Below, in pieces: positions 5,538-57,530 of a DNA stretch of 64,000 nt. The position numbers and the translations under genes were made by a program. Source of the DNA: Natronomonas halophila (GTDB lineage: Archaea; Halobacteriota; Halobacteria; Halobacteriales; Haloarculaceae); NCBI RefSeq assembly GCF_013391085.1, contig NZ_CP058334.1, positions 1,922,001-1,986,000 on the forward strand. Reading direction: 5' to 3'. The notes beneath the pieces were generated by a model. The model searched no databases, had not been told where the DNA came from, and worked only from the letters and a program-made list of their open reading frames with translations. Within the stretch, counting starts at the first letter, position 1. Every line of letters begins with the position of its first letter.

Positions 5538-6869
5538 TTATCGGCGATAGCGGTCGAGGCGCTCGGGGAGTTTCTCGGCGACGGTGCCGCCGAGTCGGTC
5601 CCGGAGCGCGCCTAGAATCCCGCGGGGCACGAAGAGGACGAAGGCGATGAAGATGAGGCCGAGGTAGAGTTCGGCGCGGCCGTCGACGAAGACGTTGATG
5701 AACTGCAGGACGGTGAGGTCACCGGCGCCCGCCGTCAGGACGCTTTCGGGCAGCGCGTCCCGGAGGAAGCGGGCCAATCCGTGGGATTCCGTCGAGAGGA
5801 TGCCGCGGACGAACTCGTGGAAGAGATGGCCGTAGAGCGCGCCGGCGAGCGTGCCGAACCCGCCGATGATGGCCGCCAGCAGGGCGTCGGCGGTCACGAA
5901 CAGGTCGAAGGTGTTCTCGGGGGCGACCGACCGCCGGTAGCCGGTAAAGAGCGCGCCGGCGATGCCGGCGAAGAAGCCGCTGATACCGAAGGCGCCCAGT
6001 TTGTACCAGAACGTGTTGTAGCCGACCGCCTTCGCACGCTCCTCGTTTTCGCGGATGGCGACCATCACCCGGCCGAACGGCGAGTGGATGATTCGCTGCA
6101 TCGCGAAGTAGGACAGCAGGACGACGGCGCCGACGGCGTAGTAGGACACCTCGACGGTGCCGAGGTCGAGGCCGGTCCCGAGGACGTTGTCGAAGCTATC
6201 GCCGGTCAACCGCCCCAGTCGGAACTGCAGGGCGTCGATACCGGGGATTCCGATGGCGAACCCCTCTCGGCCGACGACGCCGACGCCGTCACGCGGGTTG
6301 GAGCCGACGTAATCCCAGTTGCGGATGAAGACGTGGGACACTTCCGCGAAGCCCAGCGTCACCATCGCGAAGTAGACGCCGGTCAACCGGAAGGAGACCG
6401 CGCCCACGGCGACCGCGATGAGGAAGGCCACCAGCGCGCCGCCGATCAGCATGAGCATGAACGGCGCATCCGGGGCCAGTCCCGGTATCTTCCCCGTGCC
6501 GGCCAGCGCGACGAAGTAGGCACCGATGCCGTAGAACATCGCGTGGCCGAAGGAGAGATAGCCGGTGTAGCCGCTGACGAAGTCGAAACTCATCGCGAAG
6601 AGGCCGACGTAGAGCACGACGACCATCGTCCGGGTTCGGGGCAGGAAGACGTCGAGGAGCGCCCCAATCTGGACGCCGCCCACGGTGAGGGTGATGCCGG
6701 TCAGGCCGGCGTAGATGAACGGGTAGACGACCAGCGCGGCGACGACGGCGACGTGTGCCGTGTGACTCCCGAGATAACTGCGGAGCGTGTCACCGGTCGA
6801 CTCGCCGTCGTCGGACTCGGGACTGGCTGCCTCGGGTTTCTCGTCGGGGTCGGGGGCAGCGTCGCTAAT
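5538..6869 (-). CDS. livM: Branched-chain amino acid/amide-type ABC permease, LivM-like
   Basis: About 443 residues if the frame is read back to the livH stop. Second permease of the importer, with about nine to ten membrane segments and family motifs such as FDFVSGYTGYLSFGHAMFYG. The obvious GTG at 6683 cannot be the real start. The frame stays open upstream and encodes another helix (AHVAVVAALVVYPFIYAGLT) preceded by a Glu/Asp-rich tail typical of haloarchaeal membrane proteins. No in-frame ATG exists there. The upstream limit given is an ATT codon at 6869-6867 overlapping the TAG of livH, so the start is uncertain. Last gene of the livKGFHM operon. Confidence 0.85.
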   Translation of the reverse strand: MSDAAPDPDEKPEAASPESDDGESTGDTLRSYLGSHTAHVAVVAALVVYPFIYAGLTGITLTVGGVQIGALLDVFLPRTRTMVVVLYVGLFAMSFDFVSGYTGYLSFGHAMFYGIGAYFVALAGTGKIPGLAPDAPFMLMLIGGALVAFLIAVAVGAVSFRLTGVYFAMVTLGFAEVSHVFIRNWDYVGSNPRDGVGVVGREGFAIGIPGIDALQFRLGRLTGDSFDNVLGTGLDLGTVEVSYYAVGAVVLLSYFAMQRIIHSPFGRVMVAIRENEERAKAVGYNTFWYKLGAFGISGFFAGIAGALFTGYRRSVAPENTFDLFVTADALLAAIIGGFGTLAGALYGHLFHEFVRGILSTESHGLARFLRDALPESVLTAGAGDLTVLQFINVFVDGRAELYLGLIFIAFVLFVPRGILGALRDRLGGTVAEKLPERLDRYRR

Positions 6870-7857
6870 GGCCGCCCACCTCCGCGATGCCGAAGAGGCC
6901 CTTCGGGCGGGCGATAAGCACGACCACCAACACGAGGAACAACACCAGTTCCGGCAGCCCCGGGAAGTCGATGTAGTTGATGAACAGCCACGTCATCAGG
7001 GCGTCGACGAGGCCGACCAGCAGGCCGGCGACGACGGTTCCCTTAAAGGAGCCGAGGCCGCCGATGATGACGACGATAAAGGCGATAAGCAGCGTCTCGA
7101 CGCCGAGCGGGACGCTCGCGCCGAACCGCGGGTCCCACATGAGCAGGACGCCCGCGACGCCCGCAAGGCCGGCGCCGACGCCAAAGACGACGGTGAAGGC
7201 CCGCCGGACGTCGATGCCGAGCGCCTGTGTCATCTCGGGGTCCTCGCTGCCGGCCCGGATGTAGAGGCCGTACCGCGTCCGGGTGAGAAACAGGAAGATG
7301 GCGGTGACGACCAGCAGGCCGACCAGCATCTCGAAGAAGAGCAGGCCACGGGCGCTCGCACCGAGGATATCGTATCGGTTCGCGAGGAAGTCGGGCGCGG
7401 TCCCGATGGCGGCCTGCCATTCGGTCTGGGGTCGGAGGCCGCCCAACTCGACGACGATGCGTGCGGCTTCGTCGAGGACCAACACGAGGCCGAAGGTAAG
7501 CAGAATCTGGAACAGCGGTTCGCGGTCGTAAATCGGCCGGATGAGCGTCACCTCGATGGCAGCGCCGAAGCCGGTCAGTATCGCGAAGACGGCGGCGACG
7601 GCGACGAAGAACAGCAACAGGCGCGCGATTTGGCCGGTCCCCGCCGAGACGAGGCCGACCATCACGGCGCCGCCGAGATACGCGCCGAGCATCGTCAGCG
7701 ACCCGTGGGCGAAGTTGAGCACGCCCATCAGCCCGAAGATGAGGCTGAGGCCGCTGGCGATGACGATGTAGAGGGCGGCCTTCGAGAGCGCGTCGAGCGT
7801 GATGCCGATGGGTGCGAAAAGCGGGAGGCCGTCCGCGAGAAGCGACAGACCGGTCAT
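6865..7857 (-). CDS. livH: Branched-chain amino acid/amide-type ABC permease, LivH-like
   Basis: 330 residues from ATG 7857. First permease of the importer: many hydrophobic segments and the characteristic stretch SGLSLIFGLMGVLNFAHGS (about residues 38-56). A cytoplasmic-loop motif near residue 210 (TRYGLYIRAGSEDPEMTQALGI) is where LivH proteins contact the ATPases. The ATG overlaps the livF stop by four bases, which indicates translational coupling. The frame is open further upstream through livF but that part is not LivH-like. Confidence 0.9.
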   Translation of the reverse strand: MTGLSLLADGLPLFAPIGITLDALSKAALYIVIASGLSLIFGLMGVLNFAHGSLTMLGAYLGGAVMVGLVSAGTGQIARLLLFFVAVAAVFAILTGFGAAIEVTLIRPIYDREPLFQILLTFGLVLVLDEAARIVVELGGLRPQTEWQAAIGTAPDFLANRYDILGASARGLLFFEMLVGLLVVTAIFLFLTRTRYGLYIRAGSEDPEMTQALGIDVRRAFTVVFGVGAGLAGVAGVLLMWDPRFGASVPLGVETLLIAFIVVIIGGLGSFKGTVVAGLLVGLVDALMTWLFINYIDFPGLPELVLFLVLVVVLIARPKGLFGIAEVGGH

Positions 7858-42800: not shown

Positions 42801-43424
42801 CTATTTGAGTCCGAGCAGCTGCCGTCCGGAGGTGAGTACCTGGTCGGCGAGCGTCACTCCGCTCTCTCGAGGGTCCAACCCCGAGGCGAAGATCACCTCG
42901 TGGCCACCCGAAGCGTAGCCAGCGACGAGTCCCCGAAGGCGATCCCGAGCCGTCTCCGGAGGTAAATCGCCCGCATCAACCAGTCCACCGAGCGTCGCTT
43001 TCGCCGCCTCGATGCTGGTGCAAAAGGCCCCATCAGCGACCGCTTCGCCATCGACGTGTGACAAGGCAACGATCGCACCCTCGCCGAACGCATCATCCTC
43101 GTAGATTTTGTCGCTCCATTCCGAGAGACCGAACCAGACGGTTCGATACGGTCTGACCTTGAACCGGTCGGTGACGATGACGACGGCCCCGAATCGGCTA
43201 AAATCGAGCCTGTCGATTACCTCTTGGAGCGACCGACCTTCCTCGATCGGCGTTTCCTCCACGAGTGCGGGCTCATAGTCGCCATCGCCGTGTCCGTACG
43301 GCGTTTCCGAACTGATGCGTGTCGCCAACTGCAGGTTCCGCCCGATATACGTCGACCGATGCGCTGTATAGCTGCCGTCCGATCCTTCGTACAATACGAG
43401 TGCGTGCCGTTGTCTCATCTTCAT
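42801..43424 (-). CDS. DUF6735-like haloarchaeal protein
   Basis: 207 residues. The N-terminus RQRHALVLYEGSDGSYTAHRS matches the typical DUF6735 start (RALVAYER-DG-YNLHYS). No catalytic motif is seen. Such genes occur mainly on haloarchaeal plasmids and integrated elements and have no known function. The start lies 25 nt downstream of hairpin leader R5. Confidence 0.6.
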   Translation of the reverse strand: MKMRQRHALVLYEGSDGSYTAHRSTYIGRNLQLATRISSETPYGHGDGDYEPALVEETPIEEGRSLQEVIDRLDFSRFGAVVIVTDRFKVRPYRTVWFGLSEWSDKIYEDDAFGEGAIVALSHVDGEAVADGAFCTSIEAAKATLGGLVDAGDLPPETARDRLRGLVAGYASGGHEVIFASGLDPRESGVTLADQVLTSGRQLLGLK

Positions 43425-43487: not shown

Positions 43488-44414
43488 TTATCGCCGCGCG
43501 CCCTCGAGATCCCGATAGCGCTCCCGAACGGTCACTGCTGAGACGTCGGCAGCATCCGCGAGTGCGTTCTGTTTCAGATACTCGCCGGTCTCCTGTCCGG
43601 CGAGATACAGCGCTCCAGCAGCCGAACCGAGTGGATTCCGACCGTTCGCGATCTGGTCGTTGTCCGCGGTATCGAGAAGTGTCTGCGCTCGCCGCCGAGT
43701 TTCCTGTGAAGCGTCGACCGCCGACGCTACCTGTGGGACGTACTGCGACGGATCTGCTGGCGGCACGGGCAGATCGAGTTCCCGATTCAACGCGGTGTAT
43801 CCGGTGCGAATGCGCTCTTCGTCGATCTTCGAGACCCGTGCAATCGCCTCGAACGACCGAGGATGTTCGTTGAGACGGCAGACCGCGTAGAGACACCCTG
43901 ATGCGATTGCCTCGATGGATCGGCCTCGCAGGAGATCCGAATCTTGGGCCGTTCGGAAGAGTTGACACGCCTGATCACGAACGCTCGTCGGTAAGCCGAG
44001 CGCGGCCGTCATCCGCCGAATCTCGGTGAACCCAGTGATGCGGTTTCGGTCGGCCTTCGAGCTGACCTTCGCTCGGGTGTGCTCGCGACGCAGCCGATGC
44101 AGTTGGCGTCGTTTTCGCCCCTTGAGTTCCCGTCCACTGGAGTCCTGCTTCCGGCCGATGTCCGTCCCGATACCGCGGTCGTGTCGGGCGACGGTGTTCG
44201 GCGCACCGACGCGCCGGCCGCCTTCGTCGTTGTGGAACTCCCGCCACTCCGGGCCACGATCCATCTCCTGGTCCTCGACGACAAGTCCGCAGTCGTCACA
44301 GACCGTCTCGTGGGTATTCGATGTTACTCGGCTACTGCACTCCGGGCAGGTGTTGTGTTCGTTTTGCTGTACGTCCTCGTCGAACGTCTGCTCGTAGATG
44401 TTTCTCGAAGCCAT
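43488..44414 (-). CDS. tfb: Transcription initiation factor B (TFB) paralogue
   Basis: 308 residues. Zinc ribbon with Cys23, Cys26, Cys39, Cys42 (CPEC and CDDC), a B-finger/linker region, then two cyclin-like repeats (about residues 110-205 and 210-308; SIEAIASGCLYAVCR and NPLGSAAGALYLAGQ). TFB recruits RNA polymerase to TBP-bound promoters; haloarchaea carry several paralogues that give promoter choice. The C-terminal repeat ends early (REERYRDLE-like ending), slightly short for a TFB. Accessory-region copy, 27 nt after hairpin leader R2. Confidence 0.9.
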   Translation of the reverse strand: MASRNIYEQTFDEDVQQNEHNTCPECSSRVTSNTHETVCDDCGLVVEDQEMDRGPEWREFHNDEGGRRVGAPNTVARHDRGIGTDIGRKQDSSGRELKGRKRRQLHRLRREHTRAKVSSKADRNRITGFTEIRRMTAALGLPTSVRDQACQLFRTAQDSDLLRGRSIEAIASGCLYAVCRLNEHPRSFEAIARVSKIDEERIRTGYTALNRELDLPVPPADPSQYVPQVASAVDASQETRRRAQTLLDTADNDQIANGRNPLGSAAGALYLAGQETGEYLKQNALADAADVSAVTVRERYRDLEGARR

Positions 44415-54482: not shown

Positions 54483-55295
54483 CTACCAAGCGTCCCGCTC
54501 GGGGAAGGTGACTATCGACCGGCCGGTCAACGCGAGTGATGGTCGGCCCTTGTACCAGCTGACCGCCGCATCCCTAATGCGCACTGTCTGTCCTTCGGCG
54601 ATGATGGGTTGGTGCGACCGCTTCCACACGGTCAGCTTCGTTCGTCCCGTCTCGTCTTCCAGCAGCCCGACCTGTTGCATCGAGGGACTGCTCGGTTCCC
54701 ACAACTCAGCCACTTCTGCTTCGACGTCGACCCACTTGCGACCTACCTGCTCCAATTTCCCAAGCGCCACGATCGCGCCCGGCGCCGCCTGCACGTCGTC
54801 AACCATGTCCAGCACCGCGTCCTGCATCGACCGGCCATCCGCGACCCGCGCGGCCAGCTCTCGTTCGATGGCCTCGAAGCCGAGTCCACCGCGACACTTG
54901 CCTTCCAGCCGATGGGCCTGCTTGTGGACCTCCGGACGCGTCTCCGCATCCAGTTTCTCACGGGGATCAGCCTGACTCGACAGCCCACCGTGTTTCGCGT
55001 CCGTCATTGCTCGACACAGTTCCTCGCGCCGACTCGCCTGCGACCGATCCGCGCGTTCACGCGTCCGTCGTTTCTCCGCTTGTCTGGCTTCCCACTTCTC
55101 CTGTGCTTCCAGCGTCATCCCATGCGGCCGCTCCTGCTCGTCGGCTGCCGCGACCCGCTCGCGGACATCCGAGTCGATCTTCGCTTGCGTCTGCATCTCC
55201 ACCGTGGGACGCAGCTCCGGCGTTTCCTCGACTGCTTCCTGTTTGTCTTGCTGTTCGACCGAGACCTTATCACGGATCGAGTTCTTACGTTGCAT
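54483..55295 (-). CDS. OB-fold (RPA-like) DNA-binding protein with a charged helical N-terminus
   Basis: 270 residues from ATG 55295. Residues 1-125 are highly charged and probably coiled coil (KWEARQAEKRRTRERADRSQ); residues 150-270 contain an OB-fold as in archaeal RPA-type single-strand-binding proteins (DVEAEVAELWEPSSPSMQQV, GLLEDETGRTKLTVWKRS, VRIRDAAVSWYKGRPSLAL). A helper of element replication or recombination is plausible, as it lies next to the integrase region. Confidence 0.65.
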   Translation of the reverse strand: MQRKNSIRDKVSVEQQDKQEAVEETPELRPTVEMQTQAKIDSDVRERVAAADEQERPHGMTLEAQEKWEARQAEKRRTRERADRSQASRREELCRAMTDAKHGGLSSQADPREKLDAETRPEVHKQAHRLEGKCRGGLGFEAIERELAARVADGRSMQDAVLDMVDDVQAAPGAIVALGKLEQVGRKWVDVEAEVAELWEPSSPSMQQVGLLEDETGRTKLTVWKRSHQPIIAEGQTVRIRDAAVSWYKGRPSLALTGRSIVTFPERDAW

Positions 55296-55334
55296 CGGCT
55301 TACAGAGCCTGAAGGCGCTCTTCGAGCGTCCAAC

Positions 55335-55360
55335 ATCCGCGATGTCCCTGCATCGCGGAT
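55335..55360. repeat. 10-bp inverted repeat upstream of the OB-fold gene
   Basis: Perfect arms ATCCGCGATG and CATCGCGGAT around TCCCTG, followed by TTTCC, 40 bp before the OB-fold gene start. Operator or hairpin in its leader. Confidence 0.45.
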
Positions 55361-55431
55361 TTTCCACAGAATCGAACCGACCAGCCACGGCGACGACGTC
55401 AAAACGACTGACGCCGTCACCCGAGGCGCCC

Positions 55432-55475
55432 GCGCCGCGCCTTCACGCCGGACCCCGTCCGGCGCGGCGCGGCGC
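55432..55475. repeat. Two-part hairpin, palindrome 0
   Basis: Inner perfect hairpin GCCGGAC-CCC-GTCCGGC (55447-55463) enclosed by arms GCGCCGCGCC (55432-55441) and GGCGCGGCGC (55466-55475). Confidence 0.55.
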
Positions 55476-55562
55476 CGACGGCCATCCCACACAGACGAGT
55501 GAGGGGGTGAAGCTCGAGGTGAGCGCGCGCTCACCGCCGTATACCCAGCCGGACACCGCGGG

Positions 55563-55623
55563 TCGGCGCCGCCCGCCGACAGCCGTCCGTCGCAGACGCA
55601 ACGGAAGCAGCGGGCGGCGCCGA
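55563..55623. repeat. Palindrome 1 enclosing the conserved small hairpin
   Basis: Outer arms TCGGCGCCGCCCGC (55563-55576) and GCGGGCGGCGCCGA (55610-55623) are perfectly complementary over 14 bp. The centre holds CCGT-C-CGTC-GCA-GACG-CA-ACGG, a nested hairpin nearly identical in palindromes 2 and 3. Confidence 0.6.
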
Positions 55624-55707
55624 GGCGGCACGGCCGGTGGGTATACGGTGGTGGACGGCCCCGGATACGGCCGCATCGAGGGACGCAGAGGGCGAGTACC
55701 GCCGGAC

Positions 55708-55793
55708 CCGTGCGGGGCCGGACCCGCGCGAGCCTGTCCCGTCCGTCGTAGACGCAACGGAAACGCCTCGCGCGGCAGGCCGGCCGCGCACGG
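55708..55793. repeat. Palindrome 2 enclosing the conserved small hairpin
   Basis: Outer arms 55708-55721 and 55780-55793 pair at 13 of 14 positions; a second stem CCGCGCGAG/CTCGCGCGG pairs 55724-55732 with 55767-55775. The centre holds CCGT-C-CGTC-GTA-GACG-CA-ACGG. Confidence 0.6.
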
Positions 55794-56115
55794 CACGCCC
55801 GCGGAAGCACAGCCCGTCGCGGACTGAGTTCGAGCGCACGCCCGGCAGGCCGCGCAGCCATTCCCGAGGAACTCCCGGACCGTGGCATAACGGGGGTGAG
55901 CACGGCGAACCCCCGTTAGCCATCGCAGCCCGGAGGCAACTCGGGACGAGGGCGAACGCCCGAGCGGCGAGCAGCCCGCCCCGGACCGCGCAGGAGGCCA
56001 CGTCTGAACCGCCGTCCGTCGGCGCGACCGCATTCAGGGAGCGCCGACGCAACGAGCGGTGAAGATGCAGTCGTCCCGGCGCCGGTCAAACCCGGTTGCG
56101 GGCCGAGGGCTCGCA

Positions 56116-56225
56116 GGCCCGCTTTCGGGTGCGACCGGTATCGGGCGACTGCACCCGGCCCGACCCGGTCCCGTGACCGTGCCCCGTCCGTCGACAGACG
56201 CAACGGAAGCGCGAAAGCCCGGGCC
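56116..56225. repeat. Palindrome 3 enclosing the conserved small hairpin
   Basis: Arm GGCCCGCTTTCG (56116-56127) pairs with CGAAAGC-CC-GGGCC (56212-56225) with a two-base bulge. The conserved hairpin, CCGT-C-CGTC-GACA-GACG-CA-ACGG, lies off-centre to the right. Confidence 0.5.
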
Positions 56226-56353
56226 CGGCAGGAACGGTCCCTGCCGGCCGGAGCGCGCACAACCCGAGGAGTCACCCCCGAACGTACGTCGCCACACACT
56301 GGCCAGACGTCCAGAAGCGCTTTGGGCTAGGTGACCATCGCCCCTGGCGGACT

Positions 56354-56456
56354 GAAAGGGCGAGGCGCGGCGGCGTTCATGTAGTCGCTACACAGGCGCT
56401 ACCCGTCCGAAGCGAGGGTATCCTGTGTAGCGACCGCCGCCGCGCCGAGGGCTTTC
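56354..56456. repeat. 30-bp interrupted inverted repeat upstream of the integrase
   Basis: Three successive arms pair exactly: GAAAG (56354-56358) with CTTTC (56452-56456), GGCGCGGCGGCG (56364-56375) with CGCCGCCGCGCC (56435-56446), and GTCGCTACACAGG (56384-56396) with CCTGTGTAGCGAC (56422-56434). The left side has an extra TTCATGTA; the 25-base loop has its own CGCT/AGCG pair. It ends 51 bp before the integrase ATG. Attachment site, operator or transcription-blocking hairpin. Confidence 0.65.
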
Positions 56457-56507
56457 GAGGTGCCTGCCGCGCTGGTTATCTCCTCACCCGCCCTACGAGT
56501 CCCGACC

Positions 56508-57530
56508 ATGCCGACGATGGATTACGAAAAACAGGCGCAGCGATCGTTGGACCACATCGTGAGCTCGGAGACGCTCCATCCGGACAACAAGGCCCTCATC
56601 AGCCGCTACTACCGTCACATGCTGCTATCGGGTGTCAGCGCCGCCCAGCGCCAGAAAGTGATGGCCCACATCAAGATTATCATCGACCACCTCGAGGACA
56701 CGTCGGTTCACGACCTCGACAAAGACGACATCGAAGACCTGGTCGCGTGGCTGTACACTCGCGGGACGACCGAATCGACGGTCACCGATTACAAACAGGC
56801 GATCAAGCAGTTCTGGAAGTGGATGCACGACGGTAAGGAGCCGCCGGAGACGAAATGGATCCAACGCAGCCGCCAATCGGCTCGACGCCTCCTCCCACAG
56901 AGCCTGCTCACACCCGAGGACGTCGAGGCGCTGATCGAGACCGGCACGAATCCACGCGACCGGGCGTTCATCGCGCTCCTCTGGGAGACGGGCGCGCGTA
57001 TCGGCGAGTTGATCGACCTCCGGGTCGGCGACATCGAGGACGGTCTCGCGAGCAAGTACGTCGTCGTAGCCGGGAAGACGGGCGCCCGTCGACTGTTGCT
57101 GCTGGAATCCACGCCGTACATCGACGAGTGGCTACAAGCACATCCGCGACCGAGGGCCGATTCGTTCCTGTGGTGTAAGGTCGACACGAAACAGGGCACG
57201 CCCGAAGAGCAGGTCAGCTATCAGTATCTCCGCCTGCGGGTTCTGGAGCGGGCTCGCGAGCAGGCCGGCATCGAGAAACCGGTGAACCCACACCACTTCC
57301 GCCATAGCCGGGCGACGTATCTGGCGAACTACCTGACGGAAGCCCAGATGTGCGAGTGGTTCGGGTGGGCGCGTGGTTCCCGCGTTCCCGGTCGGTACGT
57401 CCACCTGTCGGGCCGGGATATCGACCGGGCGTACACTGCGATGCTTGACGAACCGGGGTATCATCGTCTCACGACCTCTCGATTGGACCGAGTCGACGAG
57501 CCATCAGATGGACACCTCGGCGCCGCATAA
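56508..57530 (+). CDS. Tyrosine recombinase/integrase
   Basis: 340 residues from ATG 56508. N-terminal SAM-like core-binding domain (about residues 5-108) and catalytic domain with Arg164 (ETGARIGEL), Lys190 (AGKTGAR), His262-x-x-Arg265 (HHFRH), Trp287 and the nucleophile Tyr297 (GRYVHLS). Archaeal XerC/D-like family; cuts and rejoins DNA at an attachment site. It lies just past a palindrome-rich block and 2.2 kb from a tRNA-like fragment, so it is the likely mover of this region. The C-terminal 30 residues are a charged tail. Confidence 0.92.
   Translation: MPTMDYEKQAQRSLDHIVSSETLHPDNKALISRYYRHMLLSGVSAAQRQKVMAHIKIIIDHLEDTSVHDLDKDDIEDLVAWLYTRGTTESTVTDYKQAIKQFWKWMHDGKEPPETKWIQRSRQSARRLLPQSLLTPEDVEALIETGTNPRDRAFIALLWETGARIGELIDLRVGDIEDGLASKYVVVAGKTGARRLLLLESTPYIDEWLQAHPRPRADSFLWCKVDTKQGTPEEQVSYQYLRLRVLERAREQAGIEKPVNPHHFRHSRATYLANYLTEAQMCEWFGWARGSRVPGRYVHLSGRDIDRAYTAMLDEPGYHRLTTSRLDRVDEPSDGHLGAA

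Follow-up and report, generated by a model that had tools for sequence, protein, structure and literature searches.

What kind of genetic element is formed by a run of palindromes lying between a gene for an OB-fold protein and a gene for a tyrosine recombinase in the haloarchaeon Natronomonas halophila? The question arose from a 64-kb stretch of its genome, referred to here as the window, in which a sequence-only reading had noticed three nearly identical hairpins of 22-23 nt and proposed a family of separate structured RNAs or single-stranded DNAs, possibly an origin, transfer or packaging locus. Exactly three copies of the core hairpin CCGTCCGTC-N3/4-GACGCAACGG are present in the window (Table 1), and the chance expectation was 0 in 100 dinucleotide shuffles; the third copy starts at 56184, 3 nt away from the position first given. 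The outer stems enclosing the copies also proved real: the first is perfect, the second (55724-55742/55757-55775) pairs over 19 nt at 79% and the third spans 56178-56182/56209-56213. A fourth variant of the core with a longer apical stem (~56010-56054) had been overlooked. However, the hairpins are not separate; they belong to one element of ~0.9-1.0 kb and are arms of its multibranched fold, which is closed by a long-range helix. The best fold of 55400-56480 is multibranched, with an energy of -643.6 kcal/mol. The minimum free energy of 55405-56290 is -536.6 kcal/mol compared to -458±9 kcal/mol in dinucleotide shuffles (z -8.8), whereas the same control gave z +2.2 for the OB gene and z +0.2 for the integrase gene. 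Conservation of the body extends over 55405-56290; the 5' end of the element is predicted and its 3' end is placed where conservation is lost. In appearance, the 22-nt hairpin repeats resemble modules for protein binding.

Table 1. Positions of the element, its parts and associated genes in the window.
Feature	Position	Strand	Basis or remark
DUF6735 protein, in conserved plasmid gene order	42801..43424	-	Pfam DUF6735 8.5e-28
TFIIB homologue, in conserved plasmid gene order	43488..44414	-	Pfam TFIIB 1.3e-35
OB-fold, SSB/RPA-type gene, divergent neighbour of the element	54483..55295	-	fold model; family A2
Candidate promoter of haloarchaeal type, on the RNA strand within codons 3-12 of OB	55260..55287	+	
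Proposed structured RNA (~1.0 kb)	55296..56290	+	homologues of 71-90% identity, covariation, z-score, promoter geometry
5'-terminal hairpin of the proposed RNA, i.e. hairpin before the OB start codon	55297..55309	+	
Leader hairpin CCGCGATG..CATCGCGG-TTTT	55332..55363	+	present in ob- and tfb-linked copies alike
5' domain hairpin	55413..55482	+	
Closing helix, long-range, 5' side	55495..55528	+	26 pairs, 6 double-changed, GU 16 / AC 0 cells
Arm 1	55531..55654	+	holds core hairpin 1 (55583-55604) within 14-bp stem 55563-55576/55610-55623
Arm 2	55690..55815	+	holds core hairpin 2 (55739-55760)
Arm of the fourth core variant (CCGTCCGTCGgcgc..gcgcCGACGCAACG)	56002..56066	+	
Strongly conserved hairpin arm	56067..56152	+	two helices 98% paired, GU 72 / AC 2 cells
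Arm of core hairpin 3 (56184-56206)	56178..56213	+	
Closing helix, 3' side	56253..56285	+	same 26-pair covariation basis

Homologues were sought at the DNA level in 146 genomes belonging to the family and 392 belonging to the order. The long element was found in ~20 haloarchaeal genomes (near-complete copies in two genomes first, then in about eighteen more), in three families (f1, f4 and f7) and with 71-90% nucleotide identity. The OB gene starts ~100 nt from the element, divergently, wherever it is readable, the exceptions being a truncated copy (L096) and a copy cut by a contig end (L085). With respect to the same families, the element is 85-90% identical to most relatives whereas the OB protein shows 36-40% identity. 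RNAalifold predicted 211-285 pairs from 20 homologues, depending on alignment and settings, and compensatory double changes affected 58 pairs and 210 cells, compared to 32.8±3.4 pairs and 66±7 cells in column shuffles; with slid partners, the maxima were 23 pairs and 46 cells. The 14-bp stem of arm 1 has been rewritten with compensation kept in loci L071 and L089-L094, and a different hairpin is substituted for arm 2 in L071 and L092-L094. The arms of the 5'-terminal hairpin reach at least 5 bp in 40 of 53 sequences (3.7 in shuffles, maximum 7); their sequence differs among relatives with compensation, giving 17 distinct arm entries. Coding sequence was ruled out: 186 of the 192 indels relative to the window sequence have lengths not divisible by 3, and all three phases show equal rates of substitution (0.117, 0.133 and 0.120), so that the codon-phase conservation named by the sequence-only reading as what would refute it is absent. 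Covariation, z-score, indels and phase rates thus bear out its view of a conserved structured nucleic acid. In Rfam release 15 (including OLE, ROOL, GOLLD, RNase P and introns), no match with E<=1 was found for the 50-60 kb part of the window or for four homologue or short-form loci, and no match reached the gathering score across the whole window. No description of the element was found in the open-access papers searched.

Two copies (L089 and L091) differ from the L083 group over the first ~230 nt and are nearly identical to it over the remainder, and in three others (L072, L095 and L096) the middle of the element is deleted while the 5' and 3' parts are retained beside the OB gene. These mosaics and internal deletions suggest that copies of the element have recombined with one another.

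Strong relatives of the OB protein (profile matches with E below about 1e-60) are present in many haloarchaea, and the region upstream of their genes contains a shorter structured element of ~0.4 kb whose leader hairpins are the same as those of the long form. In this short form, a 19-bp hairpin is very conserved and the other arms are variable with compensation. Long and short forms have leader, slot and architecture in common but little sequence in their bodies; the slot is located divergently upstream of either an SSB-like OB-fold gene (ob) or a TFIIB gene (tfb). The short form was found at 247 places in 161 plasmid records, including pNRC100, PHS2, pNG600 and pHME132, and the long form in three plasmid records; among phage records, the short form has no match. 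The gene order in the plasmids inspected is DUF6735, further genes, TFB, cargo, OB and the element, followed by cargo, small conserved proteins, primase-type proteins and a type IV secretion system (T4SS) coupling ATPase. In the window, DUF6735 and TFB are likewise present to the left of OB and on its strand, and a coupling ATPase (TrwB_AAD_bind 2.1e-7) is encoded in the genome 35 kb to the right of the element. Among 60 relatives, 35 of 45 elements are at most 40 kb from a coupling ATPase, and element and ATPase co-occur across genomes (21/5/4/30, Fisher p 6e-8). The element points toward the ATPase in 34 of these 35 cases, although the ATPase gene shares the strand of the element in 19 and is on the opposite one in 16. 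The link to DNA transfer that had been suggested from the letters is thus supported by the plasmid slot and by linkage and polarity relative to the coupling ATPase. The label "conjugative" rests on this ATPase and on MPF_T typing of several carriers in PLSDB, which types all 161 carrier records as non-mobilizable. That the locus is a conserved structured element of conjugative-type plasmids is, in our view, nearly certain.

A palindromic repeat (CTGGCGGACTGAAAGGGCGAGGC..GCCGAGGGCTTTC) at 56342-56462 has about 27 more matches in the genome (L002-L008), often as inverted pairs 150-300 nt apart, and no Rfam match; related copies come after the short element in L099, L100 and L103. The core hairpin sequence is found once each in six IMG/VR viral contigs (L173-L178), seemingly in homologous copies of one gene; these matches show no OB or element similarity and are probably unrelated to the element.

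Which neighbour belongs with the element? A XerC/D-type tyrosine recombinase is encoded at 56508-57530, to the right of the element. A role of this integrase as a partner, along attC- or integron-like lines, is not supported, as tblastn found no relative of it at the homologous loci. From this comparison, the adjacent integrase appears not to be part of the element; it is possibly the integrase of this integrated element, or unrelated cargo. On the other side, the OB protein as modelled by AlphaFold2 is disordered at its N terminus, contains helices and ends in an OB fold (residues ~185-265, pLDDT ~91). Its best Foldseek match is an archaeal OB domain (2ken, E 5e-9), and the S. solfataricus SSB (1o7i) is also matched. 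Pfam OB matches do not reach the curated cut-offs, so the assignment is based on the fold, and by this model the neighbour is an OB-fold protein closest to ssDNA-binding proteins. No OB relatives were found in viral contigs. A TFIIB gene replaces OB beside the element in at least 10 of 18 loci examined, which were picked mainly for the absence of a strong OB match beside the element. One of them is in the genome of the window itself, where a second, short element (G000:C1:2901541-2901908; L181 ~6540-6967) has a divergent TFIIB gene on one side and a gene for a DUF87/TrwB-type ATPase on the other. These observations bear on a dedicated ribonucleoprotein, in which the RNA would bind the OB-fold protein and the complex would act in trans in an OLE-like manner, the antisense overlap being incidental. 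The repetition of the hairpin modules, the higher conservation of the element relative to the protein and the proximity of OB in every long homologue that could be read through all speak for such a complex. However, the loci with TFB indicate that OB is not an obligatory partner, and the OB domain resembles ssDNA binders; we consider this explanation unlikely.

What ob- and tfb-linked copies have in common extends over the leader and into the neighbour gene as far as codon ~14. OB and TFB proteins show a similar N-terminal peptide (MSS.N.. / EGSD.Q), which is perhaps forced by overlapping nucleotide signals or is perhaps a common tag. Haloarchaeal promoters carry the motifs CGAAA / TTWT / WW (PMC4983044). 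Read on the element strand, the synonymous sites of the first 14 neighbour codons spell a candidate promoter of this type (CGAAA...TTWT...WW). GC3 at codons 2, 3, 8, 11 and 14 of ob/tfb is 0.17, 0.00, 0.15, 0.08 and 0.08, respectively (compared to 0.76 in gene bodies), and the third positions build ACCGAAAC - T/A-rich - TTA. The window has a BRE-like CGAGA at 55260-55264, a TATA-like TTAT at 55267-55270 and TA at 55286-55287 as the WW at -10/-9 of a start predicted at ~55296. Assuming a start just after the start codon, the BRE is at about -36/-32, the TATA-like part at -30/-24 and the WW at -10/-9. This geometry agrees with that of the haloarchaeal motifs and places the predicted RNA start at the start codon of ob/tfb. 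A BRE-like motif is present on the RNA strand at 37 of 52 distinct ob and tfb 5' ends, compared to 13.3±2.4 upon synonymous codon randomisation (maximum 21, 200 randomisations). The TATA-like part is degenerate; the strict joint BRE and TATA-like pattern was found at 13 of the 52 ends versus 2.1±1.3 after randomisation. A/T frequencies at third positions -33, -24 and -9 are 0.92, 0.85 and 1.0 (expected 0.16, 0.30 and 0.35).

To distinguish RNA from single-stranded DNA, the element was compared with a known ssDNA element, Frpo of F-like plasmids, and with a known RNA, archaeal RNase P RNA. Unpaired positions of the element + strand (A 0.32, U 0.09) resemble those of RNase P RNA from the same genomes (A 0.37, U 0.09) more than those of the Frpo T-strand (A 0.24, U/T 0.30), the latter being a single ssDNA control of different GC content. 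Among pairs common to the folds of both strands, the long form has 91 GU and 47 AC cells on the + strand, whereas the short form has no GU excess (36 GU, 53 AC); counts over the union of both folds are dominated by fixed wobbles and were left out. The GU-over-AC asymmetry was withdrawn as proof of RNA, as a one-strand wobble excess is seen in both controls and cannot separate RNA from ssDNA. Folding energy was uninformative as a strand test, also for RNase P RNA. In the apical loops of the core, GCA is predominant (29/63), and loops of the GNA/GNNA type were not a decisive sign of DNA. Combined, the RNA-like composition of unpaired positions and the promoter signature favour an RNA of the + strand, and the element probably acts in this form. 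The short form without GU excess, the strand-blind energy and the strict promoter pattern at 13 of 52 ends were counted against it.

The main rival is a folded ssDNA element of the leading region. The + strand would be the transferred strand and would fold on entry, where it would either serve the SSB-like and TFB genes as a promoter or priming site, in the manner of Frpo/ssi, which are promoters in single-stranded form on F-like conjugative plasmids (PMC9849209, PMC11541004), or belong to oriT. In position and polarity the element matches Frpo in F: it is located directly upstream of an SSB-type gene, the strand that folds is the template of that gene, and several copies precede different genes. 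Orientation toward the T4SS is also as such an element would have it, and GU excess is not RNA-specific since Frpo has it. Runs of 6 A/T are absent from the 70 nt upstream of ob in all 53 sequences, which was counted against the best explanation and for this rival. In contrast, the A-rich, T-poor unpaired positions are the reverse of those of Frpo, and the candidate promoter on the element strand is not something that this model would lead one to expect. Nor were promoter boxes found to be formed within a stem: the conserved stems of the short form contain no TATA-like A/T stretch, its sole A/T-rich conserved stretch being in a loop. We regard an ssDNA element as decidedly unlikely. A long, structured, cis-regulatory 5' leader of the ob/tfb mRNA (minus strand) is very improbable: the hairpin directly before the start codon carries a Shine-Dalgarno-like GGTG in its loop and AC exceeds GU on the + strand of the short form, but GU exceeds AC on that strand of the long form, unpaired A-richness is on the + strand and the synonymous-site promoter reads toward the element.

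On balance, we favour a divergent gene for a large structured non-coding RNA of haloarchaeal conjugative-type plasmids and their integrated copies, with antisense control of the neighbour's leader. We infer each of transcription, antisense effect and role of the body. The RNA, ~1.0 kb in the window and ~0.4 kb in the common short form, would be transcribed on the + strand from the candidate promoter, which lies within the initial codons of its divergent neighbour, ob or tfb. Its first ~100 nt would be antisense to the whole leader of the neighbour gene and the remainder would fold into the multibranched body with the repeated 22-nt hairpins. In established cells, the RNA may restrain the SSB-like protein and the plasmid TFB, by antisense or by transcriptional interference across the leader, and this restraint would be lifted upon arrival of the plasmid in a new cell; the body would supply stability and protein binding. 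Control of ob and tfb through the leader is put forward tentatively; antisense control alone would not need a conserved body of 0.4-1 kb. The element may also, although we advance this with reserve, represent the first large structured RNA class in the archaeal conjugative transfer programme, one module capturing an SSB-like or TFIIB gene and controlling its zygotic expression from a promoter in its first codons, with a 1 kb variant in the lineage of the window. If true, a large structured RNA class would be added to archaea. Transfer and establishment of haloarchaeal plasmids are poorly known, and the element offers a direct handle on both through its constant location and orientation with regard to the T4SS and its presence on plasmids of laboratory strains such as Halobacterium salinarum NRC-1.

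Three kinds of known systems can be compared with the element. FinP and CopA are cis-antisense RNAs of plasmids, roughly 70-100 nt long. Like them, the proposed RNA would run antisense to a plasmid control gene, over its leader; unlike them, it has a conserved body of 0.4-1 kb following the antisense part. OLE, GOLLD and ROOL are large ornate bacterial RNAs (PMC12286853), and a megaplasmid of Lactobacillus salivarius carries a long RNA (PMC5643018). These share with the element a length of several hundred nt to ~1 kb, a multibranched fold, high conservation and frequent location on mobile DNA, but the element is archaeal, is without Rfam similarity, and has a fixed divergent position on conjugative plasmids and a candidate promoter inside the neighbour gene. 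As with Frpo/ssi, structure is found immediately ahead of an early, SSB-type gene on a conjugative element, the template strand is folded, and a plasmid may carry more than one copy, each before a different early gene. Unlike Frpo, which has bacterial -35/-10 boxes in its stem and T-rich unpaired positions, the element has no such boxes, is A-rich where unpaired, reaches 1 kb and has a candidate promoter that would work on double-stranded DNA and yield the opposite transcript.
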